From assembly GCF_023277925.1 (NCBI RefSeq), contig NZ_CP063832.1, positions 4,639,001 to 4,703,000 of the forward strand: a stretch of 64,000 nucleotides of DNA, read 5' to 3'. Source of the DNA: Pseudomonas entomophila. Lineage in GTDB: Bacteria > Pseudomonadota > Gammaproteobacteria > Pseudomonadales > Pseudomonadaceae. The notes below the pieces were generated by a model. The model saw only the letters and a list, made by a program, of their open reading frames with translations. It did not search any database and was not told where the DNA came from. Within the stretch, counting starts at the first letter, position 1. Every line of letters begins with the position of its first letter. A program made the translations under genes and the position numbers. Of the stretch, positions 756 to 14,323 are shown one piece after another.

Positions 756-2575
756 GCCGAGGTGTCCTCCGAAGATTGCAGGTTGGCGCCGGGCTGGGCC
801 ATGCGCAGTTGCAGGGTCAGCAGGGCGCCGCCTTCCGGGTGGTTGGCCAGCAGCAGTTCGCCGCCCAGGGCGCGCATCAGGCTTTCGCAGATGGCCAGGC
901 CCAGGCCCAGGCCCTGGGTGCGGGTCTTGGTGGTGAAGAACGGCTCCTTGGCGTGCTCCAGCGCCTGGCGGCTGAAACCGGGGCCGTTGTCGCGGATGTA
1001 CAGGTAGACGCAGTCGTCCTGCCGTTCGGCACTCAGCCAGAGCTTGCGTGGGTTGGCTTTCTCGGTCAGGGCGTCGAGGGCGTTGGCCAGCAGGTTGCCC
1101 AGTACCTGGCGCAGGCGTGTTTCGCCCGCCTGCACCCACAGGGTGGCTTCTGGCAGGTCACGCACCAGCTCCACGGCCATGGCCCGGCGGCGCTTGGCCA
1201 GCAGCGCCAGGGCGTCGTCCAGCGCCGGTTGCAGGGCCACGCTTTCCGGGGCGTGGCGGTCGCGGCGGGCAAAGGCGCGCAGGTGGGCGATGATCGAGGC
1301 CATGCGCCCGGTCAGTTCACCGATCAGCTTGAGGTTGCCGCGCACGTCCTCGGTGCGCTGGTGGTCGAGCAGGATCTCGGCGTTCTCGGCGTAGCTGCGG
1401 ATCGCCGCCAACGGCTGGTTGAGTTCGTGGCTGATGCTCGCCGACATGGTGCCTAGCACCGACAGTTTGCCGGCCTGAACCAGCTCGTCCTGGGCGCGCA
1501 CCAGCTCCTGCTGGGTGTTCTCGCGCTCCAGCACCGCGCTTTTCAGCCGGGTGTTGAGGCCTTCGAGGTCGGCGGTGCGTTCTATCACGCGCTTTTCCAG
1601 CTCCTGGCGGGCACGGGCCTCGAAGTCGATGCGGTCGATGTAGTGACGGCGGCGTTGCATCACCAGGCCGGCCAGGAGCATGGCCACCAGCAGCGCGGCG
1701 CCGCCGATGGCCATGACGGTCTGCACCGAGCGGTCGACCAGCGTACGCGGCGCGAGGATGCTGACCTGCCAGCCGGTTTCCTTGATGTCGCGGGTCTGGA
1801 TCAGCCAGGCAGCCTGGTCGAGGGTCAATGGCTGCGGGGCCTGGGTCGGGTAGGGCTGGATGGCGATGATCGCCTGGCGCTCGGTTTCGGTCAGCTCGCG
1901 GGTGGCGCGGAAGCGCCAGTCCGGGCGCGAGGTGAGCACCACCACGCCGTTCTGGTCGGTCAGCAGCAACTGCTCGGGGGTGCGGCCCCAGAGGGTTTCG
2001 GTATGGTCGAGGTCGACCTTGACCACCAGCACGCCAATCACCCGCTCGCGGTCGCGCACCGCCGCGGCGAAAAAGTAGCCGCGCTTGGCCGAGGTGGTGC
2101 CCTGGCCGAAGAAGCGCCCCAGGTGGCCTTCCATTGCCTCGATGAAGTAGGGGCGGAAGGAGAAGTTGCGGCCGAGGAAGCTGTCTGGCTTGTCCCAGTT
2201 GGAGGCGGCCAGGGTGTTGCCGCTGACGTCCATCAGGTACATCACTTCGGCACCGGTCTGGTGGGTGATGTCCTTGAGCAGGCGGTTGGCGTTGGTCACC
2301 GCCTCGAGCTTGAACGGGTCGGCCAGCACACCACGCAGGGCCGGCAGGTCGCCGAGGATCTGTGGCAGGGTCTCGTAGCGGTGCAGGGTGCCGAGCAGGT
2401 TGGCCACGTAAAGGTCGAGGGTCTGGCGGTTCTGCGAGGCCAGTTCGTCCTGGTAGTAGCGTTCGGCGAGGTGGTGCAGCGGCCACAGCAGTGGCGCCAG
2501 GCACAGGGCCAGCAGCGCCAGGCTGCGCCAGCGGGGGCGGCGTGGAGGCGTGGGTCTTGGAATCATCGCGATCAT
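752..2575 (-). CDS. dctB: Sensor histidine kinase, DctB-like
   Basis: Membrane sensor kinase of 607 residues, the usual DctB length, expected to sense C4-dicarboxylates in the periplasm and phosphorylate DctD. An N-terminal membrane helix lies at about residues 16-33. A periplasmic PDC/Cache-type sensor region follows, then a second helix at about 285-305 and a coiled-coil linker. The HisKA box holds the phosphoacceptor H383 in [13 protein letters not shown]; the HATPase domain has an N box ([12 protein letters not shown]) and G boxes ([14 protein letters not shown]). The start is uncertain: ATG 2575 forms the base of a 10-bp hairpin and has no Shine-Dalgarno sequence. A second in-frame ATG lies three codons downstream. 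rfbD ends 30 bases upstream on the same strand, so read-through from the sugar operon is possible. Confidence 0.85.
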
Positions 2576-2598
2576 TGCGCCAGAAAAGTCTGGCGCAA
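2575..2598. repeat. Perfect 10-bp inverted repeat between rfbD and dctB
   Basis: Arms TTGCGCCAGA (2575-2584) and TCTGGCGCAA (2589-2598) flank a 4-base loop. The palindrome sits just after the rfbD stop and ends on the first base of the annotated dctB start codon. There is no T-run after it on the minus strand, so it is not a typical intrinsic terminator. It could be an operator, or an RNA hairpin that limits dctB translation or stabilises the rfb mRNA end. Confidence 0.7.
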
Positions 2599-2605
2599 TT
2601 ATGCG

Positions 2606-3466
2606 CTACTTCAGGCAGTCGATCAGCGCTTCATGCCAATGTGGTTGGCTGACCTGCCATTCCCGGGCGAGGCGCGAGCAGTCCAGGCGTGAATTGAGCG
2701 GGCGCCGGGCCGGCGTCGGGTACTCGCTGGACGGGATCGGCAGCAGCTCGGCGCAGGGCAGGCCCCGTGCCTTGAGCTGCTCGCCGATCGCCTGGGCGAA
2801 GCCGAACCAGGAGGTCTCGCCTTGGGCGGTCAGGTGGTAGGTGCCCCAGGCACCGGCCTGGTCTTGCTGCCAACGCTCGACCAGCGCGCGGGTGCTGGCG
2901 GCGATGGTGGCGGCCCAGGTGGGCGCGCCGATCTGGTCGTCCACCACCTTCAGCTGTGGCCGCTCCTGCAACAGCTTCTGCATGGTCAGCAGGAAGTTGC
3001 GCCCATGCCGCGAATACACCCAGCTGGTGCGCAGGATCAGGTGCTGTCCGCCGACCGCGGCGATCACCTGCTCCCCTGCCAGCTTGCTGCTGCCATAGAC
3101 ACCCAGGGGGTTGGTCGCGTCATCTTCGGTGTAAGGCGTGGCCTTGCCGCCGTCAAACACATAGTCGGTGGAATAGTGGATCAGCGGCACGCCAAGACGC
3201 GCGGCTTCTTCAGCGAGCACGCGCGGGGCTTGGGCGTTGATGGCGAAGGCCAGCTCCGGTTCGCTTTCGGCCTGGTCGACCGCCGTGTGGGCGGCGGCGT
3301 TGATGATCAGGTCGGGTTTCAGCTGGCGCAGCGGTTCGCGCAAGGCTTCCGGCCGGGCGAGGTCGAGCCGGTCGCGGCCAAGCGCCAGCACCTCGCCCAG
3401 GCCGTCCAGCGCGCCTTGCAGGGCTTGGGCGACCTGGCCATTTTGGCCACAGACGAGCATCTTCAT
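2606..3466 (-). CDS. rfbD: dTDP-4-dehydrorhamnose reductase
   Basis: Last step of dTDP-L-rhamnose synthesis: NAD(P)H-dependent reduction of dTDP-4-dehydro-L-rhamnose. 286 residues, normal for RmlD. The N-terminal Rossmann motif is CGQNGQVAQAL. The short-chain dehydrogenase catalytic pair is in YGSSKLAGE, and THYSTDYVF-like text (IHYSTDYVFDG) is typical of the family. I chose ATG 3466 because it overlaps the rfbC stop as ATGA; an in-frame extension to 3544 would run into rfbC. It is the last gene of the sugar operon, 30 bases before dctB. Confidence 0.95.
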   Translation of the reverse strand: MKMLVCGQNGQVAQALQGALDGLGEVLALGRDRLDLARPEALREPLRQLKPDLIINAAAHTAVDQAESEPELAFAINAQAPRVLAEEAARLGVPLIHYSTDYVFDGGKATPYTEDDATNPLGVYGSSKLAGEQVIAAVGGQHLILRTSWVYSRHGRNFLLTMQKLLQERPQLKVVDDQIGAPTWAATIAASTRALVERWQQDQAGAWGTYHLTAQGETSWFGFAQAIGEQLKARGLPCAELLPIPSSEYPTPARRPLNSRLDCSRLAREWQVSQPHWHEALIDCLK

Positions 3467-4008
3467 GGGAACAGCTCGGCATCGCGCAACAATGCGCCGG
3501 CCTGGTCCTTGGTCGACAGGATCGGCGCGGCCTCGAGCCCCCATTCGATGGCAAGCTCAGGGTCGTCCCAGCGGATGCAGCGCTCGGCCTTGGGGTTGTA
3601 GTAGTCGGTCGTCTTGTAGAGGAAGTCGGCCGTTTCACTCAGCACCAGGAAACCATGGGCAAACCCCGGCGGGATCCAGAACTGCGTATGATCCTTGGCG
3701 CTGAGGCGCGTGGCGACCCACTTGCCGAAGGTCTTCGAGCTGCGCCGGATGTCCACGGCCACGTCGAGCACTTCGCCCTGGACAACCCGCACCAGTTTCC
3801 CCTGCGGGTTGTCGATCTGGTAGTGCAGGCCTCGCAGCACGCCGCGTTGCGAGCGGGAGTGGTTGTCCTGCACGAAGGCTGCCTCGAAGCCGGCTTTTTC
3901 AGCGAACTCGCGGGCGTTGAAGCTTTCGAAGAAGAAGCCGCGGTCATCACCGAACACTTTCGGCTCGATGATCAGGACTTCGGGTATGGCGGTCTTGACG
4001 ATATTCAT
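3463..4008 (-). CDS. rfbC: dTDP-4-dehydrorhamnose 3,5-epimerase
   Basis: Double epimerisation of dTDP-4-keto-6-deoxy-D-glucose at C3 and C5 to the L-lyxo sugar on the way to dTDP-L-rhamnose. 181 residues, the full RmlC cupin length. Typical motifs are [10 protein letters not shown] near the N-terminus, [18 protein letters not shown] carrying the catalytic histidine, and [14 protein letters not shown]. The start overlaps the rfbA stop and the stop overlaps the rfbD start, both as ATGA. Confidence 0.96.
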
Positions 4009-4880
4009 GGGGTCTCTTCAGCCAACTTTTGCAAGTACTGGCCATATCCTGTCTTTTTCAACTCCGCGGCCTTGGCCAGAAGGCTGTCGCGGCCGATCCA
4101 TCCTTTCTGGAAGGCGATCTCCTCAAGGCAGGCCACTTTCAGGCCTTGGCGATTCTCGATGGTCTGCACGTACTGCGCCGCTTCCAGCAGGCTTTCGTGG
4201 GTCCCGGTGTCGAGCCAGGCGAAGCCGCGGCCGAAGCGCTCGACACGCAGGTCGCCACGCTTGAGGTAGGCATTGTTGACGTCGGTGATCTCCAGCTCGC
4301 CACGGGCGGAGGGACGAATATCCTTGGCGATCTTCACCACATCGTTGTCGTAGAAATACAGGCCGGTCACGGCGTAGCTGGATTTCGGCTGCGCGGGCTT
4401 CTCCTCGATCGACAACGCGCGGCCCTGCGCGTCGTACTCGACCACGCCGAAACGCTCCGGGTCCTTGACCCAGTAGCCGAACACGGTGGCGCCCGAGGGG
4501 TGCTTGACCGCTCGCTGCAGTTGTTCGCCGAAACCTTGGCCATGGAAGATGTTGTCGCCGAGGATCAGGCACACCGAATCGTCGCCGATGAACTGCTCGC
4601 CGATCAGGAACGCCTGAGCCAGGCCATCAGGTGAGGGCTGCTCGGCGTAGCTGATATTGATGCCGAACTGGCTGCCGTCGCCGAACAGCTGGCGGTACTG
4701 CGGCAGGTCACGGGGCGTCGAGATCAGCAGGATGTCGCGGATCCCGGCCAGCATCAGCACCGAGATCGGGTAGTAGATCATCGGTTTGTCGTAGATCGGC
4801 AGCAGTTGCTTCGATACACCGAGGGTGATCGGGTGCAGGCGGGTGCCGGATCCACCGGCCAGGACAATACCTTTAGTCAT
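4005..4880 (-). CDS. rfbA: Glucose-1-phosphate thymidylyltransferase
   Basis: Makes dTDP-glucose from dTTP and glucose-1-phosphate, the entry step for every dTDP-sugar in this operon. 291 residues, as in RmlA. The nucleotide-binding signature [13 protein letters not shown] is at residues 6-18, followed by [30 protein letters not shown] and [13 protein letters not shown] are also family text. Start ATG 4880 is chosen over an upstream in-frame ATG (4952) because it overlaps the rfbB stop as ATGA and begins at the conserved [10 protein letters not shown]. Confidence 0.96.
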
Positions 4881-5962
4881 GCGATCAGGTCCTTGAAGTC
4901 GGAGTTGCCCAGACGCTCGCCCTGGTAGCTGCCATCCTGAACATGTTTGCACCAGTCTAGGTTAGCGAGGTACCACTGGACGGTCTTGCGCAGCCCTGTG
5001 AAGAAAGTTTCATCCGGTTTCCAGCCTAGCTCGTGTTCGATCTTGCTGGCATCGATGGCGTAGCGCTGGTCGTGGCCGGGGCGGTCCTGGACGAAGGTGA
5101 TCAGGTCGACGTAGCGGGCCACGCCGGCCGGGCGGCGGTCGGGGGCGAGCTCTTCGAGCAAGTCGCAGAGGGTGTGCACCACGTCGAGGTTCTTCTGCTC
5201 GTTGTGGCCGCCGATGTTGTAGGTTTCGCCGACCTTGCCGGTGGTCACCACTGTCAGCAGGGCGCGGGCGTGGTCCTCGACGTACAGCCAGTCGCGTACC
5301 TGCTGGCCGTTGCCGTAGACAGGCAGCGGTTTGCCGGCCAGGGCGTTGAGGATCATCAGCGGGATCAGCTTCTCGGGGAAGTGATACGGGCCGTAGTTGT
5401 TCGAGCAGTTGGTGATCAGCACCGGCAGGCCGTAGGTGCGATGCCAGGCGCGGACCAGATGGTCCGAGGCCGCCTTGCTGGCCGAGTAGGGTGAGCTCGG
5501 TGCGTAGGGGGTGGTCTCGGTGAACAGGTCGTCGACGCCGTGCAGGTCGCCGTAGACCTCGTCGGTGGAGATGTGGTGGAAGCGGAACGCCGCGCGAGCG
5601 TCGGTGGGCAGGCCGTTCCACCAGGCACGGGTGGCCTCCAGCAGGGCATAGGTGCCGACGATGTTGGTGTGGATGAACGCGGCCGGGCCGTCGATGGAGC
5701 GGTCGACGTGGGACTCGGCGGCCAGGTGCATGATGGCCTGTGGCTGGAAGCGTTCGAGCAGGGCGCTGACCGTGGGCTGGTCGGCGATGTCGGCCTGGAC
5801 GAACTCATAGCGGCTGTTGCTGGCGATGCCTTGCAGCGACTCCAGGTTGCCCGCGTAGGTCAGCTTGTCGAGGTTGAGGACTTCGTGCTCGGTGTTGTCG
5901 ATCAGGTGGCGGACCAGTGCCGACCCGATGAAGCCGGCGCCGCCAGTGACGAGAATGCGCAT
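4877..5962 (-). CDS. rfbB: dTDP-glucose 4,6-dehydratase
   Basis: NAD-dependent extended SDR that converts dTDP-glucose to dTDP-4-keto-6-deoxyglucose, the branch point between the rhamnose genes downstream and the aminotransferase upstream. 361 residues. Rossmann motif [14 protein letters not shown] at 7-20; substrate and catalytic text [11 protein letters not shown] and [15 protein letters not shown] (YxxxK); [17 protein letters not shown] is diagnostic of RmlB. ATG 5962 is preceded by an AGGGA ribosome-binding site. A 62-base gap separates it from wecE, the only sizeable gap between the first and last gene of the operon. Confidence 0.96.
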
Positions 5963-6024
5963 GTGTTGTGTCCCTGCAGCTAGTCGATTTAAGAGGTGTG
6001 GCGTGGTGCTGCCGTCGGCCAGGC

Positions 6025-7170
6025 TCAACGGCGCGTCAGCGCCCGGCCAAGGGTGTCGACCACGCGGTCCTGCTGGGCAGGCTTGAGCCCGCACCACAAG
6101 GGCAGGCGCACCAGGCGCTCGGACAGGCTGTCGGTCTGCTGCATCGAACCATGCACACGGCCGTAGCGCTCGCCTGCTGGCGACGAGTGTAGCGGCACGT
6201 AGTGGAACACGGCGTAGATCTCTTCGGCGCGCAGGGCCTTGATCACCGCCTGGCGGTCCACGCCTGGCGCCAGCAGCACATGGTACATGTGCGCGTTGTG
6301 CTGGCAGTCGGCGGGCACGATCGGGCGTCGCAGCAGGCCTTGGGCCTCGAGCTCGGCCAGGGTGTCGTGATAGTGGTCCCAGCTGGCCAGGCGCTGGTCG
6401 GTGATGGTACGGGCTTCCTGCAACTGGGCCCAGAGGAAGGCGGCGATCAGTTCGCCCGGCAGGAACGACGAGCCCACTTCCTGCCAGGTGTACTTGTCCA
6501 CCTGGCCTCGGAAGAAGCGGCTGCGGTCGGTACCTTTCTCACGGATGATCTCGGCGCGCAGCACCAGCTCCGGGTCGTTGACCAGCAACGCGCCACCTTC
6601 GCCGGAGATCACATTCTTGGTTTCATGGAAGCTGAACGCCCCCAGGTCGCCGATGCTGCCCAGGGCACGGCCCTTGTAGCTCGACATCACGCCTTGGGCG
6701 GCGTCTTCGACGACCCGCAGGCCATGTTTGCGGGCGATGGCCATGATGGTGTCCATCTCGCAAGCAACGCCGGCGTAGTGGACCACCGCGATGGCCTTGG
6801 TGCGCGGGGTGATCGCCGCCTCGATGAGTGTTTCGTCGAGGTTGAGGGTGTCCTCGCGGATATCGACGAACACCGGTATCGCGCCGCGCAGGACAAAGGC
6901 GTTGGCGGTGGAGACGAAGGTGTAGGACGGCATGATCACTTCATCGCCCGGCTGCAGGTCGAGCAGCAGCGCGGACATCTCCAGCGCGGCGGTGCAGGAG
7001 TGGGTCAGCAGGGCCTTGCCGCAACCGGTGCGCTCTTCCAGCCAGGCATGGCAGCGCTTGGTGAAGGGGCCGTCACCGGCGAGCATGTGGCCGAAGTTGG
7101 CCTCGGCGATGTAGTGGAACTCCTTGCCGGTCATGTGCGGGCGATTGAAGGGGATCTGGTCGTGGCTCAT
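6025..7170 (-). CDS. wecE: dTDP-4-amino-4,6-dideoxygalactose transaminase (WecE/RffA type)
   Basis: PLP enzyme of the DegT/DnrJ/EryC1 sugar aminotransferase family. WecE transfers an amino group from glutamate to dTDP-4-keto-6-deoxyglucose, giving dTDP-Fuc4N. 381 residues, close to WecE. N-terminal [12 protein letters not shown] and [16 protein letters not shown] match WecE text; the PLP lysine is K185 in [16 protein letters not shown]. The RfbA and RfbB products encoded downstream supply its substrate. No acetyltransferase (WecD) or Fuc4NAc transferase (WecF) is nearby, so the fate of the amino sugar is unclear. The start overlaps the phosphoesterase stop as ATGA. Confidence 0.88.
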
Positions 7171-7886
7171 GGGCGGTTACCTGCGGGAGCGAGGGGCGCC
7201 TGGTCGCTGCGGATCGCACTGATGCGGCCGCCGATCTGGGTGCCCTTGGCAAGGTTGTCGTAGAAGTAGTCGGTGAAGCCGGCCTGGGCCATGGCGCGCT
7301 GGGCGGCTGCAATGTCGTAGGCGATGCGATGCAGGGTGAAGGCCTGGCCGTCCCAGGTGGCGAACGCCGCGCGCGGGTCGCCGTCGCGCGGTTGGCCCAC
7401 GGAGCCGGGGTTGCACCAGGTCTTGCCGTTGCCGTGCCAGAGGTACTGCACATGGCTGTGGCCAGAGGCGAAGAAGCGCCCCGGGCGTTCGGCGAAATAA
7501 GCGTCGGAGGGCTCCAGGTATTCATCGAGCGGGTCGTTCCAGCCGCCGTGGATCAACGCCAGGCCATGCAGGTTGGCGCGCTCGGGCAGGCTTTCGAGCC
7601 AGGCGCGGTTCGCCGCGCTGATCACCTTGTGCTGGTAGTCGAGGCAGGCGTTGGCGCTGTTCGAGCGGGGGCAGGGCTCGCGGCGGGCGATGTAGGCATC
7701 GTGGTTGCCCAGCAGCGAGAAGATGCCACGCGCGCGCAGGGCGTCGCAGCAGGCGTTGATCTCGCTGTAGTAGCCGGCGGTGTCACCCAGGCAGACGATC
7801 TCGTCCACGCCCAGCCGGTCGAGCTCGGCGAGCACGGCGGACAGCGCGGCATAGTTGCCGTGGATATCAGAAATGATCCCGATCAT
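7167..7886 (-). CDS. Calcineurin-like metallophosphoesterase
   Basis: Small cytoplasmic metallophosphoesterase of 239 residues in the YfcE/MJ0936-like group. The dimetal motifs are complete: SDIHGN (D7, H9), CLGD (D35), LLGNHD (N61-D63), ALIHGG and SGHSHVQ. There is no signal peptide. Members hydrolyse phosphodiesters or phosphomonoesters, but substrates vary and cannot be read from sequence. Its place inside a sugar-nucleotide operon, overlapping the ATP-grasp gene by 20 bases and wecE by 4, suggests it removes a phosphate or splits a diester during glycan or metabolite assembly; that is inference. Confidence 0.85.
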   Translation of the reverse strand: MIGIISDIHGNYAALSAVLAELDRLGVDEIVCLGDTAGYYSEINACCDALRARGIFSLLGNHDAYIARREPCPRSNSANACLDYQHKVISAANRAWLESLPERANLHGLALIHGGWNDPLDEYLEPSDAYFAERPGRFFASGHSHVQYLWHGNGKTWCNPGSVGQPRDGDPRAAFATWDGQAFTLHRIAYDIAAAQRAMAQAGFTDYFYDNLAKGTQIGGRISAIRSDQAPLAPAGNRP

Positions 7887-8844
7887 GAACCACGTAGTCC
7901 TCGATGTAGCGCACGGCGAAGCCCGGGCGGATAGCCGGCTGCGTTGGCGTCTCGCCCTTCAGGTACCAGGCCAGGCACATGGCCGCCTCGTTGTAGCCGA
8001 ACGCAGTGCGGATGGAACTGGTGGAGGAAATACGTGGGTTGATCTCCAACAGCTTCCAGGTACCGTCCGCCGCGCGCCGGAACTGCAGGTTGGTCGGGCC
8101 GACCGGCTTGAAGTGGCGGCACAGACGGGCGACCACGGCGTCCAGGGTCGGCTCGTGGCGCACCCAGGCCTTGGCGGTGGAACCGTCCGAGGCCAGGCTG
8201 CGCTGGAAAGTGATCGAGGCACAGGCCGCGCCACGGCCATCGCCGAACACCGCTACGGTGTATTCCTGGTTGGCGCTGCCGATGATCGGCTGGGCCATCA
8301 GCACCTCGCCCAGCAGTGGCGCCCAGGGGGTGAAATCAGCTTCCTCGCGCACCCAGACCAGGCCTTTGGAGGCGTAGCTGCGGCGAGGCTTGAGCAGGAA
8401 CGGCAGGCCGAGCTCGGCGCTCAGCGAGGCAAAGTCACCGGCCAGGTGGCTGGGGATGCGACTGTCGTCCTTGACGGCCAGCAAGGCCTGGTCCATGGCG
8501 TACTTGTCGCGGGTCAGCGCGATCAGACGAGTGTCGTTGAGCACGACGCGGCAGCGGCTGCCAGCGAGCAGGTCGCGGTGTGCGTCGAGCCAGTGCACAT
8601 CCTGTTCGATGCCGGGAATCAGCAGGTCGACCTGAAAACGTTCGATCACATCCAGCAGCCAGGTTGCATATTCCGGTGCGGCGGTCAGTGGGGCTTGCAG
8701 GAAGTGATCGCTCCAGGCCTGGCCGACCGCGTCGGCGTAGATGTCGGTGCCCACCAATGTCGCGCCGGGGGCGACGGCGCGCAGCGACTTGAGCAGCCCG
8801 TAGCCCATGATCGCGCCGACGCCGGTGACCAGAATGGTGCTCAT
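7867..8844 (-). CDS. ATP-grasp family ligase (carbamoyl-phosphate-synthase-like fold)
   Basis: 325 residues. The N-terminal Rossmann-like preATP-grasp region begins ILVTGVGAIMGYGLLKSL. The ATP-grasp core has LLKPRRSYASKGLVWV as the nucleotide-binding loop and LEINPRISSTSSIRTA as the metal-binding E-x-N-x-R motif. Such stand-alone proteins join a carboxylate to an amine through an acyl-phosphate. In this operon an obvious candidate amine is the dTDP-amino sugar from WecE, which would yield an aminoacyl or acyl sugar, but nothing in the sequence fixes the substrates. The start overlaps the epimerase stop (ATGA) and the end overlaps the phosphoesterase start by 20 bases. Confidence 0.8.
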   Translation of the reverse strand: MSTILVTGVGAIMGYGLLKSLRAVAPGATLVGTDIYADAVGQAWSDHFLQAPLTAAPEYATWLLDVIERFQVDLLIPGIEQDVHWLDAHRDLLAGSRCRVVLNDTRLIALTRDKYAMDQALLAVKDDSRIPSHLAGDFASLSAELGLPFLLKPRRSYASKGLVWVREEADFTPWAPLLGEVLMAQPIIGSANQEYTVAVFGDGRGAACASITFQRSLASDGSTAKAWVRHEPTLDAVVARLCRHFKPVGPTNLQFRRAADGTWKLLEINPRISSTSSIRTAFGYNEAAMCLAWYLKGETPTQPAIRPGFAVRYIEDYVVHDRDHF

Positions 8845-9692
8845 TGGTGGTTCTCCTGGTGCTGCTTGAGCCGGGTCAGGCCCGTGTGCAGGTCGATGGC
8901 CGGCCAGTAGCCGATACGTTGGTAGAGGGCCTCGCAGCCACTGGCCATGGGCAGGTCCGGCAGGTCCGGCTTGCTGGCGTCGAAGCTGATTCGCTCTGGC
9001 GTGGCGAACACCTCGAACGCCGTCCGGGCGATCTGCGACAGGCGAAGGTCCTCGGGGTGGGCGCAGGTGAAGGTGCCGGTGACGCGCTGGGCGGCGATGC
9101 GGGTGCAGATTTCACCCAGGTCGTCGAGGTGCAGGTAGTTGCGCCGGGCGTCGAGCGTGCCGTGGAACGGCTGGGGCCGGCCCGCGCGGGCGTTGTCGGC
9201 AATGGCGTACAGCAGCGGTTGGTGGCGTCGGCAACGGGCCTGGCTGTCATACACCTGCGACAAGCGCAGCACGGTCAGTTCCAGGCCTTGCTGGGCACAG
9301 AACAGCGCCGCGACTTCCTCGGCGTGGCGTTTGGACAGGCTGTAGGCGCCGTAGTAGCGGTCGCCGGGTTGGTACAGCACCGACAACGACGACAGCAGGA
9401 TCACCTGGCGTGCGCCACAGTGCTGGGCCAGGCGGCAGGCGGCGAGGGTGCCGACGCTGTTGACCCGTTCAGCGCGCACCAGGTCGTCCGCGCTCGGGCC
9501 ACCGAAATCGGCGGCGGCCAGCACGACCAGGTCGAAGCGTTCGTCGACTTGCACAGGCGTTTGCCAATCGCTCAGGTCGAACGCAATGTCCGCCTCGCGG
9601 CGCCCGGCGAAGCGCACCTCGCCCAGCTGCGCCAAGGCCTGGCCCAGGGCTCGGCCAAGGGTCGAGGTGCTGCCGATCACCAGGCTGCGCAT
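8841..9692 (-). CDS. NAD(P)-dependent sugar epimerase/reductase
   Basis: 283-residue extended SDR. N-terminal dinucleotide-binding text VIGSTSTLGRALGQAL; catalytic YxxxK in YGAYSLSKRHAEEV; later RNYLHLDDLGEICTRI, typical of nucleotide-sugar epimerases and reductases. It is shorter than RfbB or GalE and may be a 4-keto reductase or epimerase; the substrate is not identifiable. A longer in-frame reading to 10307 overlaps the methyltransferase in another frame and is not real. I used ATG 9692, whose A is shared with the TGA of the gene before it (TGATG). Confidence 0.82.
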   Translation of the reverse strand: MRSLVIGSTSTLGRALGQALAQLGEVRFAGRREADIAFDLSDWQTPVQVDERFDLVVLAAADFGGPSADDLVRAERVNSVGTLAACRLAQHCGARQVILLSSLSVLYQPGDRYYGAYSLSKRHAEEVAALFCAQQGLELTVLRLSQVYDSQARCRRHQPLLYAIADNARAGRPQPFHGTLDARRNYLHLDDLGEICTRIAAQRVTGTFTCAHPEDLRLSQIARTAFEVFATPERISFDASKPDLPDLPMASGCEALYQRIGYWPAIDLHTGLTRLKQHQENHQ

Positions 9693-10414
9693 CAGTTGGC
9701 CGTCGCTTCGAGCATTAGCGCGCAGCTGAGCTCGGGGTAGTCGATGCCGACGGTGCACATGGCGCCGGTGATCTGCTCGCTGAGTTCGAGCTTGAGCAGT
9801 TGCGAGGTCATGAATGGCTTGAGGAACACGCCCTCCTTGCGGGTGACCTGGTAGCCGGCGTCGGTCAGCTCGCGGGTCAGGCTGTCCAGCGAATACACAC
9901 GCTGGTGGCCCAGCTCCAGGTCGCCCTGGCCGAGGTTCATCATGTTCCCTAGCAGGCCGGCGGCGTGGCCGAAGCGGCGGTGCAGCGACTCGCCGTTGGG
10001 CACCAGCACGAACAGGCGCCCACCGGGCGCGAGGAAGCGGCGGAAGCGCTGCAGCACGGTCTGCGGGTCGTCCACGTGCTCGAGGACGAAGCCCATGACG
10101 ATCAGGTCGAAGGTGCGCGGGCTGTCGAAGTTTTCGAAATAGCCCTCGACGATGTCCACGGGGCTTTCGGGGAACTGCTCGCGAAACTGCGCGATGACCG
10201 AGGCCGAGCCGTCGATGACGGTATGCGAGGCGAAGAACTGCGAGAAGCGATTGGTGGAGAAGCCATGGCCGACGCCCAGTTCGAGGATCGAGTCCTGCGG
10301 CTGGCACAGCTGCATGATCCGCTGGGGGTACCAGTTAAGGATGATGTCGTTGTCGAAGGCGTAGCCGAAGCGATCGCTGTAGGCGCCGATGTAGCTATCA
10401 AGCGTGTTGGTCAT
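9692..10414 (-). CDS. Class I SAM-dependent methyltransferase
   Basis: 240 residues. Motif I for S-adenosylmethionine binding is [12 protein letters not shown] near residue 43; [19 protein letters not shown] is motif II with the usual aspartate and [17 protein letters not shown] is motif III. The Methyltransf_11/23 fold is clear. It could methylate the sugar, its amino group or an attached acyl chain, but this is not shown by sequence. It overlaps the WbqC gene by 17 bases and the epimerase gene by one, so it is part of the same transcript. Confidence 0.85.
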
Positions 10415-11156
10415 GGTGGGCTCGCAGGTCGGTTTCGGCGCGCTCTGGCGCGGTGGATGCAGAGGCGGACGGGAGCACGTGCTTCATGAAGCGCGGGGCT
10501 TCACGGCCGCAGTTGAACAGCAGGTCGAGGATGCTCACACCATGGGCGAATGCGCCCCACAGCTGTGGATACTCGGGGTAGCCGCGGTAGTCGAACCAGG
10601 TGACGGCGATGCCTTCGGCGTCGAACTGGCGTTCATCGAGGTAGTCACGCGCGGCAGGGCCCGACAGGTATTCGCTGGCGCCGGCCTGCCGGCACAGGTC
10701 GACCAGGCGCTCGGTCTTGCCTTCGCCGAGCTGGTAGTCCCAGGAGCGGCTGATGCGGGTGGTGATGCCAAGATAGTCGCAGACCGCTTGCAGCAAGGCA
10801 TGGTTGAGCGCGCTGAGGTTGCCATGCGCCTGCTCCAGGTACAGGGGCTTGAGCCAGCGGGCGATTTCGGCGAAGCAGGGGGCCTTGGCGTAGTTGGCTT
10901 CCAGGGACTTCCAGTGCTTGACCTGCCAGCGGCTGTCGCGCAGCTCGACATCGCGGATACGCCGGTCGATGTCCTGGCCGGCGGGCACCGTCAGCCACTC
11001 GACACCCTTGGGCGTCTTGATCTGGTTGCGGTTGCGCCAGTCGTTCTTGGTGTACTGCATGTCGTCGTAGAGGATGAACTCGTCCACGGCGGCGATCAGG
11101 TCGAAATAGCCCTTCCAGGGGATGTAGTTCGACTGCAGGATGGCGACCCGCTTCAT
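10398..11156 (-). CDS. WbqC family protein
   Basis: First gene of the minus-strand sugar operon. 252 residues with the WbqC signature from the start: [20 protein letters not shown], then [20 protein letters not shown] and WLTVPAG. Family members occur in O-antigen and other glycan or secondary-metabolite clusters; their reaction is not firmly established as far as I know. A GGAG ribosome-binding site lies just before ATG 11156. The 266-base gap to the divergent 966-residue gene should hold the operon promoter. Confidence 0.88.
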
Positions 11157-11422
11157 GGGCGCACTCCCATGCTGGCGCGACGTAGTTCTGACGCGAGCGG
11201 CAGCTTTGGCCTGGAATCGGCGTCAAGGCGCCGGGGAATAGCCAGCTGATCGTCGGGCATGTCGGGTTGGTTCCTGTTGGCCTGGGGGCGATGCGGAGCG
11301 CTCTGCGCCGTGGTTTTGCTGGGCGATACCGGTGTCTGGTCGCCTGGCGGGCCGGATCGTCCCTCTTGCTTCCGGGCAGCGGTAATGGCGATATAAGCAA
11401 AAAAGAGGCCGAGGTTCACACC
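11157..11422. other. Divergent intergenic region between the sugar operon and the kinase-aminotransferase gene
   Basis: 266 bases that must hold the promoters for both directions. I found no convincing -35/-10 pair. An AT-rich patch GATATAAGCAAAAAAGAGG (11390-11408) just before the plus-strand gene contains its ribosome-binding site. No palindrome longer than 6 bp stood out. Confidence 0.5.
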
Positions 11423-14323
11423 ATGCCGTTGCACACCCTGCTCCACCGCTCCAGCCAGTCCCGTCCCGTGGTTTCCGAAGCGCAGGCCCAGCAGGCTGTG
11501 CAGGCCTATTACGGCCTGCATGGCGCGTTGGTGCCCCTCGGTAGCCAGCAGGACGTGAACTTCTGGCTGGACAGTGATCAGGGCCGCTTCGTGTTCAAGG
11601 CCTGCCATGGTAGCTATGCCGAGTCGGAGTTGCAGGCGCAGCACGCGGCGCTGGCTTTCCTGCATCGACAGGGCATCGCCGTGCCGGCTGTGCGTCCGGC
11701 GGTTTCCGGCGAAACGCTGCTGGCGCTGGAGATCGAGGGCCAACCCTTGCGCGCCCGGATGCTCGACTACATCGAAGGTGAACCGTTGACTCGCCTCACG
11801 CACCTGCCGGCACGGCTGGTGGCCGAACTGGGCAGGCTCTGTGCCCAGGTTGACCAGGCCCTGGCCGGTTTCGACCATCCGGGCCTGGAGCGCACCTTGC
11901 AGTGGGACCCTCAGCATGCCCAGGCCCTGATCGAACACCTGTTGCCGACCCTTGAAGCAGGTGCGCGGCGCCAGCAAGTCGAGCGGGTCACCCGTCAGGC
12001 TGCCGAGCGCCTACAGCCGCTGGTCGACCTGTTGCCTGTTCAGGCCGTGCACCTGGACATCACCGATGACAACACGGTCTGGCGTCGCGACGACGCGCGG
12101 CAATGGCAATTGCAGGGGGTCATCGATTTCGGCGACCTCTGCCGCACCTGGCGCATCGCCGACCTGTCGGTCACCTGCGCGGCCCTGCTGCACCACGCCG
12201 AAGGCGACCCGTTGCGGATCCTTCCGGCGATTTCCGCCTACCAGGCGCTGAACCCGCTTGAGGAGGCCGAGCTGCGTGCACTGTGGCCCCTGGTGCTCAA
12301 TCGCGCAGCGGTGCTGGTGCTCAGCAGCGAGCAGCAACTAGCCGTCGACCCCGGCAACCAGTACGTGCTCGACAACATCGGCCATGAGTGGGAAATCTTC
12401 GATACCGCTTGCTCTGTACCGGTGGCGCTGATGGAGGCTGCGATCCTGCAAGCAGCGGGCAGGGTGCCCGAGGCACCTGATTTCAGTGGCAGCCTGGCGC
12501 TGTTGCCCGCATTGGTGGGGCAGGTGATCGGCCGTGTCGATCTCGGGGTCCTCAGCCCGCACTGCGAGTTCGGCAACTGGGAGCAGCCGGGGTTCGACCA
12601 GCGCCTGCTGGTCGCGCAGCCGGCGCCTTCCAGCAGCCTGCACGGTCAGTACCGACTCTCGCAGACCCATATTGATCGACCCGATGAGCCTGCCACTTGT
12701 GCATTGGGGGTGGAACTCAACCTGTTCCCCGGCACCGTGCTGCAGGCCCCCGAGGCGGGCGTCTGGCAGCGCGGCGGCGATAACCGCGGCTGCTTGCGAA
12801 CCGCGCAGTGGCAACTGTGGCTCAACGGCCTGGAGGAGGCGCCGGCGGATGGCCAGGTGCTGGAGAAGGGCCAGGTGCTAGGTGCCACCTGCGGTTTCCT
12901 CAGTGTGCAGTTGTGCCTGGAGGGGGAGGCGCAGCCGCCGTTCTTTGCCAAACCCTCCCACGCCGAGGCCTGGCTGGCCCTGTGCCCCTCGCCACGCGCG
13001 CTGCTGGGCTTCGACTGCGACGCCGAGCCACTGGCCGACCCGCTGGCGCTGCTGGCCCGGCGTGACGCCAGCTTCGCTCGTTCGCAGAAGCACTACTACG
13101 CCCAGCCGCCGCATATCGAGCGTGGCTGGCGCAACTACCTGATCGACATGCAGGGCCGCTCGTACCTGGACATGCTCAACAACGTCGCCGTGCTGGGCCA
13201 TGGTCATCCGCGCATGGTCGCCGAGTCGGCGCGCCAGTGGTCGCTGGTCAATACCAACTCGCGCTTCCACTACGCCGCCATCGCCGAGTTTTCCGAGCGC
13301 TTGCTGGAAGTAGCGCCGGAAGGCTTCGACCGGGTGTTCCTGGTCAACAGCGGCACCGAGGCCAACGACCTGGCGATCCGCCTGGCCTGGGCCTACAGCG
13401 GCGGGCGCGACCTGCTCAGTGTGCTGGAGGCCTATCACGGCTGGTCGGTGGCCACCGACGCCATCTCCACCTCTATCGCCGACAACCCCCAGGCCCTGGA
13501 AACCCGGCCGGACTGGGTACACCCGGTGGAAGCGCCGAATACCTTCCGTGGTCGCTTCCGCGGGGCCGACAGCGCCGCCGACTACCTGCGCGATGTCGAT
13601 GCGAAGCTGGCCGACCTGGATGCCCGTGGTCGCCAGCTGGCGGGCATGATCTGCGAGCCAGTGTATGGCAACGCCGGGGGCATTTCGCTGCCGGCGGGCT
13701 ACCTGCGCGAGGCCTACGCCAAGGTGCGTCAGCGCGGCGGGGTGTGCATCGCCGACGAGGTTCAGGTTGGCTATGGGCGCCTGGGCGAGTACTTCTGGGG
13801 CTTCGAGGAGCAGGGCGTGGTGCCGGACATCATCACCATGGCCAAGGGCATGGGCAACGGCCAGCCGCTGGGGGCGGTGATTACCCGTCGGGAGATCGCC
13901 GAGGCGCTGGAGGCCGAGGGCTACTTTTTCTCGTCTGCGGGGGGCAGCCCGGTCAGTTGCCGTATCGGCATGGCGGTGCTGGATGTGATGCGTGACGAAG
14001 GGCTGTGGGACAACGCCCGTGACGTGGGGCGCCATTTCAAGGCGCGCCTGGAGGCCTTGGTCGACAAGTATCCGCTTGCCGGCGCCGCCCATGGCTCGGG
14101 CTTCTACCTGGGGCTGGAGCTGGTGCGCGATCGCCAGACCCTGGAACCGGCCACCGAAGAGACCATGATCCTGTGCGACCGCCTGCGCGAGCTGGGGATC
14201 TTCATGCAGCCGACCGGCGACTACCTGAACATTCTCAAGATCAAGCCGCCGATGTGCACCACGCGGGCGAGCGTGGACTACTTTGTCGACAGTGTGGAGC
14301 GAATCCTCGCCGAAGGGCTCTGA
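11423..14323 (+). CDS. Trifunctional-looking fusion: APH-family kinase, degenerate M23-like domain, class-III aminotransferase/phospholyase
   Basis: 966 residues in three parts. Residues 1-350 are an aminoglycoside/choline-kinase-like domain with HLDITDDN (H210, D212, N217) as the catalytic Brenner motif and IDFGDL (D235) as the metal-binding DFG. Residues about 400-560 resemble a peptidase M23/LytM beta domain (LGVELNLFPGTVLQAP), but the zinc ligands H, D and HxH are replaced, so it looks inactive. Residues about 565-966 are a class-III aminotransferase with the PLP lysine K808 in TMAKGMGNGQPLG. The combination recalls kinase plus ammoniophospholyase pairs (phosphoethanolamine and phosphohydroxylysine phospholyases): phosphorylate an amino alcohol, then eliminate phosphate and ammonia. 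The start is ATG 11423 with GAGG upstream; 52 codons of in-frame extension lack family text. Confidence 0.85.
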   Translation: MPLHTLLHRSSQSRPVVSEAQAQQAVQAYYGLHGALVPLGSQQDVNFWLDSDQGRFVFKACHGSYAESELQAQHAALAFLHRQGIAVPAVRPAVSGETLLALEIEGQPLRARMLDYIEGEPLTRLTHLPARLVAELGRLCAQVDQALAGFDHPGLERTLQWDPQHAQALIEHLLPTLEAGARRQQVERVTRQAAERLQPLVDLLPVQAVHLDITDDNTVWRRDDARQWQLQGVIDFGDLCRTWRIADLSVTCAALLHHAEGDPLRILPAISAYQALNPLEEAELRALWPLVLNRAAVLVLSSEQQLAVDPGNQYVLDNIGHEWEIFDTACSVPVALMEAAILQAAGRVPEAPDFSGSLALLPALVGQVIGRVDLGVLSPHCEFGNWEQPGFDQRLLVAQPAPSSSLHGQYRLSQTHIDRPDEPATCALGVELNLFPGTVLQAPEAGVWQRGGDNRGCLRTAQWQLWLNGLEEAPADGQVLEKGQVLGATCGFLSVQLCLEGEAQPPFFAKPSHAEAWLALCPSPRALLGFDCDAEPLADPLALLARRDASFARSQKHYYAQPPHIERGWRNYLIDMQGRSYLDMLNNVAVLGHGHPRMVAESARQWSLVNTNSRFHYAAIAEFSERLLEVAPEGFDRVFLVNSGTEANDLAIRLAWAYSGGRDLLSVLEAYHGWSVATDAISTSIADNPQALETRPDWVHPVEAPNTFRGRFRGADSAADYLRDVDAKLADLDARGRQLAGMICEPVYGNAGGISLPAGYLREAYAKVRQRGGVCIADEVQVGYGRLGEYFWGFEEQGVVPDIITMAKGMGNGQPLGAVITRREIAEALEAEGYFFSSAGGSPVSCRIGMAVLDVMRDEGLWDNARDVGRHFKARLEALVDKYPLAGAAHGSGFYLGLELVRDRQTLEPATEETMILCDRLRELGIFMQPTGDYLNILKIKPPMCTTRASVDYFVDSVERILAEGL

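Follow-up and report, generated by a model that had tools for sequence, protein, structure and literature searches.

What becomes of the sugars made by an operon that encodes no glycosyltransferase (GT)? The question is raised by ten minus-strand genes spanning positions 2606–11156 of a 64,000-nucleotide stretch of Pseudomonas entomophila DNA, bases 4,639,001–4,703,000 of a 5.76-Mb single-contig genome. The whole stretch is referred to as the window. An initial annotation had described the ten genes, nearly all overlapping by 1–20 bases, as a deoxythymidine diphosphate (dTDP)-amino sugar operon without a GT. Overlaps of this size are present at 8 of the 9 junctions, profile matches support the family named for each of the ten genes, and family profile searches detect no GT family among the ten products. 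The locus is probably the source of dTDP-L-rhamnose and of a decorated dTDP-4-amino-4,6-dideoxy sugar, the two building blocks of an O-linked glycan on flagellin, and GTs encoded between flgL and fliC would attach them.

Two units at the rml site

The initial annotation treated the ten genes as one system, a view that is rejected here. RmlB, RmlA, RmlC, and RmlD constitute a conserved Pseudomonas rml operon. The six genes upstream of rmlB, encoding WbqC, a methyltransferase, a short-chain dehydrogenase/reductase (SDR), an ATP-grasp ligase, a phosphoesterase, and WecE, are a separate cassette that is inserted there. The locus contains the following features.

10398..11156, minus strand: WbqC-family protein, 252 aa, first cassette gene (PF08889 over cut-off)
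9692..10414, minus strand: class I S-adenosylmethionine methyltransferase, 240 aa (PF13489, E 4e-19)
8841..9692, minus strand: NAD-dependent epimerase/SDR, 283 aa (PF01370, E 1.5e-17)
7867..8844, minus strand: ATP-grasp carboxylate-amine ligase, 325 aa (ATP-grasp fold, Mg/ATP residues present)
7167..7886, minus strand: calcineurin-like metallophosphoesterase, 239 aa (PF12850, E 7e-20)
6025..7170, minus strand: WecE-type DegT aminotransferase, 381 aa (NF008687, 625 bits, cut-off 375)
5963..6024, minus strand: 62-bp gap, where the inserted cassette adjoins the rml operon
4877..5962, minus strand: RmlB, dTDP-glucose 4,6-dehydratase, predicted maker of the branch-point intermediate (TIGR01181, 512 bits, cut-off 365)
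4005..4880, minus strand: RmlA, glucose-1-phosphate thymidylyltransferase (TIGR01207, 510 bits, cut-off 361)
3463..4008, minus strand: RmlC, 3,5-epimerase (TIGR01221, 273 bits, cut-off 156)
2606..3466, minus strand: RmlD, reductase (TIGR01214, 342 bits, cut-off 224)
11165..11596, no strand assigned: far insertion flank, whose counterpart in genome G190 begins 224 bp from the RmlB-side match (blastn against locus L079, 89% over 445 columns)

In transcription order, the cassette genes overlap by 17, 1, 4, 20, and 4 bp, the 62-bp gap separates WecE from RmlB, and the rml genes overlap by 4 bp at each junction. With the chosen starts, all ten genes have an ATG start and an in-frame stop. The open frame of RmlD extends upstream to 3544, and its ATG at 3466 yields the 4-bp overlap. 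The GC content of the cassette genes (0.638–0.688) is near that of the window (0.652) and thus gives no compositional sign of recent foreign origin.

The rml site was compared in nine relatives chosen from 16 genomes searched. The RmlC–RmlD–kinase arrangement, with an agmatine-deiminase-like gene nearby, is present in all nine, and RmlB–RmlA in eight, being missing in G134. The cassette occupies the site in none of them. In the window and in G127, the nearest relative of the window genome among the genomes compared, the six cassette genes stand between RmlB and its neighbor gene and are 94–99% identical between the two.

The insertion is delimited by G190, whose kinase is 98.5% and whose FliC is 100% identical to that of the window genome. 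The alignment of the two sites reaches base 5988 on one side and resumes at 11165. Between these points, G190 contains only 224 bp, including a 63-bp stretch that is 89% identical to the WecE gene and in the same orientation. On the simplest reading, the G190 lineage once had the cassette at the rml site and later lost it. The sequence that once preceded rmlB thus now precedes wbqC, an arrangement that could let both sugars share one promoter.

The flanking genes encode a Cache-domain histidine kinase, which we take to be DctB, an APH-kinase/class III aminotransferase protein, and a PAD_porph-family protein, presumably an agmatine deiminase or similar enzyme. The APH-kinase/class III aminotransferase gene (11267–14323, plus strand) encodes a 1018-aa protein that fuses an APH-type kinase domain, a middle part without family match, and a class III aminotransferase. 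It adjoins rml in seven of the nine relatives.

Transferases at the flagellin locus

No GT, Wzx, Wzy, or ABC exporter is found among the ten genes or the scanned flanking genes. None of the 15 genomic GT2 (PF00535) sites lies inside the window, across which other GT families were not searched. The candidates are located 2 Mb from the cassette, at the flagellin locus. There, after the flagellin gene (C1:2,606,231–2,607,088) come a KASIII-like gene and genes for GT2 proteins of 1178, 918, and 1191 aa, FlgL, and FlgK, so that three large GT2 genes lie between flgL and fliC. The 1178-aa GT (C1:2,608,591–2,612,124) is 64–70% identical to a protein encoded inside other Pseudomonas cassettes, between WbqC and the methyltransferase. 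The initial annotation had left two options, that the operon feeds transferases elsewhere, such as those for lipopolysaccharide (LPS) or flagellin, or that it makes a soluble sugar. The flagellin option gains support from this cassette-linked orthologue and its two companions in the flgL–fliC interval; the soluble option gains none.

A search of the genus with the ATP-grasp protein matched 19 of 199 genomes, seven of them at 72% identity or above, the window genome included. Among the other six, the cassette is in the flagellar cluster in five and at the rml site in one (G127). It is accompanied by KASIII-like, FliC, FlaG, FliD, and FleQ genes in G157 and G134, and by FlgF, FlgI, and FlgK in G156, G153, and G010. 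A search for the same gene order and its flanking transferases, as the initial annotation had suggested, gave a uniform result. Among loci of named genomes, every Pseudomonas locus with the order WbqC, big GT (~1180 aa), methyltransferase, SDR, ATP-grasp, phosphoesterase, and WecE has FliC/FliD or FlgK in the same stretch (10 of 10, counting L089, L091, and L094, which are the loci of G157, G153, and G134). Stretches were read for 17 of the 199 sampled genomes.

At the rml-site loci (the window, L088, L097, L098, and L110), no gene occupies the slot between WbqC and the methyltransferase, and this is what the initial annotation perceived as a missing transferase. The slot is also empty in 15 distant loci, whose ATP-grasp proteins are 39–46% identical, so the empty slot alone proves nothing.

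Because the GT of the window genome lies 2 Mb from the cassette, co-inheritance of the two is a real test. GT orthologues of at least 61% identity are present in all seven genomes with an ATP-grasp protein at 72% or above, and in four of the 192 others, which include G076 and G028 with ATP-grasp proteins 44–49% identical. The association, not corrected for kinship, has a Fisher p value of 1.5e-10, which becomes 2.7e-9 when the window is excluded. A tree of 21 GTs places the 13 rows from cassette genomes on one side of a branch with support 97/96. Four rows from genomes with an alternative gene set (95/93) and three from genomes with a split set (100/100) are each likewise on one side of a branch. 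L089, L091, and L094 were not used twice beside G157, G153, and G134, and L090 was left out of a second tree.

The position of the 1178-aa GT in the tree follows the cassette, not the species. The kinases of G190, G102, and G189 are 94–98.5% identical to that of the window genome, but their GTs only 61–63% (98.5% and 63% in G190). Conversely, the kinases of G156, G153, and G010 are 80% identical, but their GTs 69–70% (70% in G153).

In G057, G190, G189, and G102, WbqC (45–53% identical) and WecE (57–59%) accompany the GT with other genes between them. This alternative set, in the flagellar loci L071–L074, contains two methyltransferase-like genes, one of them below the Pfam cut-off, and a DAO-type FAD oxidoreductase; Pfam assignments are from G190, and the other three genomes were judged by gene size and position. 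The split set is found in P. palmensis, P. aegrilactucae, and P. fontis. At the rml site, these species have genes for WbqC, SDR, ATP-grasp, and phosphoesterase, joined by the methyltransferase in P. fontis alone; WecE is encoded at their flagellar locus near fliC, between a 918-aa-type and a 1178-aa-type GT.

Proposed pathway and rival explanations

For the locus we infer the following enzyme activities, order of steps, acyl group, and pairing of transferases with sugars. RmlA and RmlB would produce dTDP-4-keto-6-deoxy-D-glucose, part of which RmlC and RmlD would divert to dTDP-L-rhamnose. WecE would aminate the remainder to a dTDP-4-amino-4,6-dideoxyhexose, most likely of D-galacto configuration (Fuc4N). 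WbqC may then acylate the 4-amino group, most likely with an amino acid, and the ATP-grasp ligase may form a second amide or build the acyl unit. The methyltransferase, SDR, and phosphoesterase would complete the decorated sugar. At the flagellum, the 918-aa and 1191-aa GTs encoded between flgL and fliC would attach rhamnose to serines of flagellin, and the 1178-aa GT would cap the glycan with the decorated amino sugar. The cassette, which in other Pseudomonas stands with its transferase in the flagellar cluster, would here act from a place before rmlB, behind the former upstream DNA of rmlB.

The nearest Protein Data Bank (PDB) chains of WecE, 4piw and 6blg, score 507–511 bits, the next 174, and are named dTDP-4-amino-4,6-dideoxygalactose transaminases. 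By family, WecE is predicted to convert dTDP-4-keto-6-deoxyglucose to dTDP-Fuc4N. The checked motifs are kept in four of the six cassette proteins, the ATP-grasp ligase, phosphoesterase, SDR, and methyltransferase. Across ten aligned sequences including the window's, phosphoesterase residues D7, H9, D35, N61, H62, H113, H143, and H145 are invariant, making the metal motifs complete, as are Y117 and K121 of the SDR YxxxK motif and the ELGxGHG stretch of the methyltransferase. L119 was left out of alignment A3 owing to a stop in the translated stretch. Single-sequence PDB searches with WbqC or the ATP-grasp protein gave nothing meaningful. A profile search matched the ATP-grasp protein to the carbamoyl-phosphate-synthase-like 2pn1 and found nothing for WbqC.

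The scheme resembles the flagellin glycosylation and viosamine islands of P. syringae, which carry vioA, vioM, vioT, vioS, vioB, vioR, and acp beside fgt1 and fgt2, with a VioT of 1,173 aa (PMC3927599). Shared features are a dTDP-4-amino-4,6-dideoxy sugar, N-acylated and O-methylated, that caps flagellin rhamnose, here as a prediction; a transferase of about 1,180 aa; and sugar genes away from the flagellar cluster. Correspondingly, the RmlA, RmlB, and WecE families score over curated cut-offs, and the gene of a 1178-aa GT2 protein beside fliC tracks the cassette. Unlike the island as described there, the locus has a WecE-type aminotransferase, galacto by family, and stands before rml, the vio proteins being compared by description only. 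The cassette also lacks VioB acetyltransferase, acyl carrier protein (ACP), KAS, and ACP reductase, its proteins giving no acetyltransferase, ACP, or KASIII family match, and has WbqC, ATP-grasp, phosphoesterase, and SDR genes instead. Because the acyl genes (VioB, ACP, KASIII, and ACP reductase) are absent, the locus appears to work like the viosamine island without being a member of its type. By analogy, the intact sugar cassette inserted at a conserved rml operon, together with its transferases at fliC, may be a variant of the P. syringae-like logic built from other genes.

The a-type island of P. aeruginosa PAK (14 genes) and the b-type island of PAO1 also combine flagellin sugar genes with GTs and are polymorphic between strains. 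Likened by description, they lie upstream of the flagellin gene, unlike the rml-site cassette. Flagellin of P. aeruginosa carries linked rhamnose (PMC3958885). Shewanella oneidensis sfmABCDE likewise includes a methyltransferase and an ATP-grasp protein in flagellin modification, with a NeuB-like nonulosonic-acid route; WbqC and a metallophosphoesterase are not named in the portion of text consulted (PMC3765264). In E. coli, WecE serves enterobacterial common antigen synthesis; the cassette protein passes the curated WecE model, and its nearest solved structures are of this kind. Unlike that system, the ten genes include no WecD acetyltransferase or common antigen genes. The initial annotation recognised no described system in this gene set. 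Open-licence papers agree so far as searched, with no match for WbqC with ATP-grasp, WbqC with flagellin glycosylation, or flagellin glycosylation with metallophosphoesterase. Capping-sugar genes are usually sought in flagellar or neighboring islands, and a search confined to the flagellar island would overlook the sugar half at the rml site.

Several observations weigh against the flagellin assignment. No FliA or RpoN consensus is present upstream of wbqC or in the 62-bp gap, and no sigma-70-like site is found in 2000–11700, where shuffling predicts 0.8. Flagellar co-regulation of the cassette is thus without support. The GTs of the three split genomes are 57–59% identical to that of the window genome, compared with 61–63% in the four alternative-module genomes, so the GT follows the ATP-grasp set only imperfectly. 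In addition, cassettes with a small GT2 and no flagellar genes found nearby occur, for example, in Pseudomonas sp. GM80 (L101), Accumulibacter (L099), and Desulfobacteraceae (L103), and hence the sugar is not flagellin-specific by nature. In the same scans, three RpoN-like matches all lie inside coding sequence, three terminators are found against 5.4 expected, and no tandem repeats are found.

The first rival explanation keeps the flagellin role and changes the acyl group. A plain fatty or hydroxy acid would be attached, the KASIII-like protein encoded beside fliC would contribute, and WbqC would have some other task. The adjacency of that gene to fliC in the window genome favors this, as does the 3-hydroxybutanoyl group of P. 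syringae mVio, which goes with an acp/KASIII/reductase set (PMC3927599). Yet the KASIII-like gene also occurs in G096, whose 20 kb examined revealed neither WecE nor WbqC, and KASIII was found in FliC-type loci only, whereas WbqC accompanies an aminotransferase in many others. The cassette, with its overlapping genes, also has no ACP family match, and the explanation is doubtful. Use in the LPS O-antigen, with the decorated amino sugar as an O-unit residue and rml feeding rhamnose to LPS, is unlikely and was rejected. The genome does have a heteropolysaccharide locus, L030 (G000:C1:214500–234499), encoding an asparagine synthase, Wzz, UDP-sugar dehydrogenase, RmlB, RmlA, DegT aminotransferase, a second WbqC (30% identical), GNAT acetyltransferase, flippase-family protein, GTs, and a GT4-type initiating transferase, a set that we take to resemble E. 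coli O121. In Accumulibacter (L099), moreover, the cassette stands with other GTs, one with an O-antigen-ligase-like domain below cut-off. However, with its own RmlA, RmlB, aminotransferase, and WbqC, L030 need not depend on the cassette. The small GT2 of non-flagellar cassettes has no close relative in the window genome (best 30%), and cassettes of near relatives are mostly in flagellar loci.

A decaying or silent cassette, left after its move to rml with flagellin carrying rhamnose only, is suggested by G190, which combines the nearly empty site and its WecE remnant with a different module at the flagellar locus. All ten frames of the operon are open, however, with motifs kept as described above; G127 retains the six genes, and the big GT is open in both genomes. 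Decay is very unlikely. Least credible is a soluble decorated nucleotide sugar or secondary metabolite that needs no transferase, which was considered and rejected. The operon itself has no transferase, and the WbqC–methyltransferase slot is empty at the rml-site and 15 distant loci. Nevertheless, the big GT fills that slot in all ten flagellar-locus Pseudomonas loci, a small GT2 fills it in eight non-flagellar loci, and the big GT is present elsewhere in the window genome.

A recurrent module and the WbqC family

The ATP-grasp and phosphoesterase genes, mostly with WbqC and a sugar aminotransferase, recur in several phyla. One scan of named species genomes, many of them metagenome-assembled, gave 54 loci, of which 53 were kept after L141 (E 8e-5) was dropped. 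Among loci with enough flank, all 51 ATP-grasp genes are followed by the phosphoesterase, 39 of 52 have a related SDR immediately before them, and 45 of 52 have a related methyltransferase upstream. Of 40 loci with enough flank for the wider set, 39 contain WbqC, 36 a sugar aminotransferase, and 35 both; two of the four loci without the aminotransferase are from split genomes. The records include Accumulibacter, Desulfobacteraceae, Rhizobiales, Planctomycetes, Sulfurovum, Leucobacter, and Verrucomicrobiales. Flagellin-like genes near the module are also seen in Janthinobacterium and Rhodocyclales metagenome-assembled genomes and in Cupriavidus.

In eight loci without flagellar genes found, a GT2 of about 315 aa fills the WbqC–methyltransferase slot; the five compared are 51–81% identical. 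The best match to this small GT2 in the window genome, at 30%, is G000:C1:3393098–3394006, and cassette and flagellar queries gave no match in its 16-kb surroundings. Another arrangement is seen in flagellar loci of Pseudomonas and Stutzerimonas (L029, L121, L124, and L127, with L029 and L124 from the same genome and Pfam run on L029 only). Here the ATP-grasp/phosphoesterase/WbqC set stands with other nucleotide-sugar genes, a C-methyltransferase, and a GT of about 1730 aa upstream of fliC.

The set of WbqC, ATP-grasp, phosphoesterase, SDR, and methyltransferase may tentatively be viewed as a portable module, so far undescribed, for decorating the 4-amino group of nucleotide sugars with an aminoacyl, peptide-like substituent, with WbqC as a BshC-like ligase of amino acid and amino sugar. 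Different transferases would place the sugar on flagellin in Pseudomonas or on other glycans, and strains would exchange decoration modules but retain WbqC, WecE, and the capping transferase. The literature searched assigns no chemistry to the set of ATP-grasp, phosphoesterase, WbqC, and aminotransferase, and the interest of the system lies in what the module and WbqC do chemically.

WbqC accompanies glycyl-Qui4N in E. coli O121 and Shigella dysenteriae 7. The predicted fold of WbqC resembles the HUP core of BshC (PDB 4wbd). BshC is the cysteine-adding enzyme of bacillithiol synthesis and acts on glucosaminyl-malate. As this fold belongs to an enzyme that adds cysteine to an amino sugar, an aminoacyl decoration is suggested, and we propose that WbqC is a candidate aminoacyl-to-aminosugar ligase. 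WbqC is half the length of BshC and would act on nucleotide sugars.

The likeness to BshC is structural only, and other tests do not support a closer relationship. The Foldseek match has an E value of 7.7e-3 and a TM-score of 0.41 by query length, and no WbqC match reaches E ≤ 0.001. PF10079 (BshC) has no match among 32 WbqC members at E up to 10, comparison of the two profiles by hhalign gives a probability of 0.6%, and slices of the BshC profile reach at best 2.4% against WbqC, with a control slice at 2.1%. As these sequence tests failed, WbqC is rejected as a BshC member and kept as a protein that may work like BshC. A YxxGPAxxxY motif spotted by eye in both proteins has no hhalign support and is given no weight. 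The BshC-like fold offers a testable activity to the WbqC family, which is large, with at least 8000 candidates at E ≤ 0.001.

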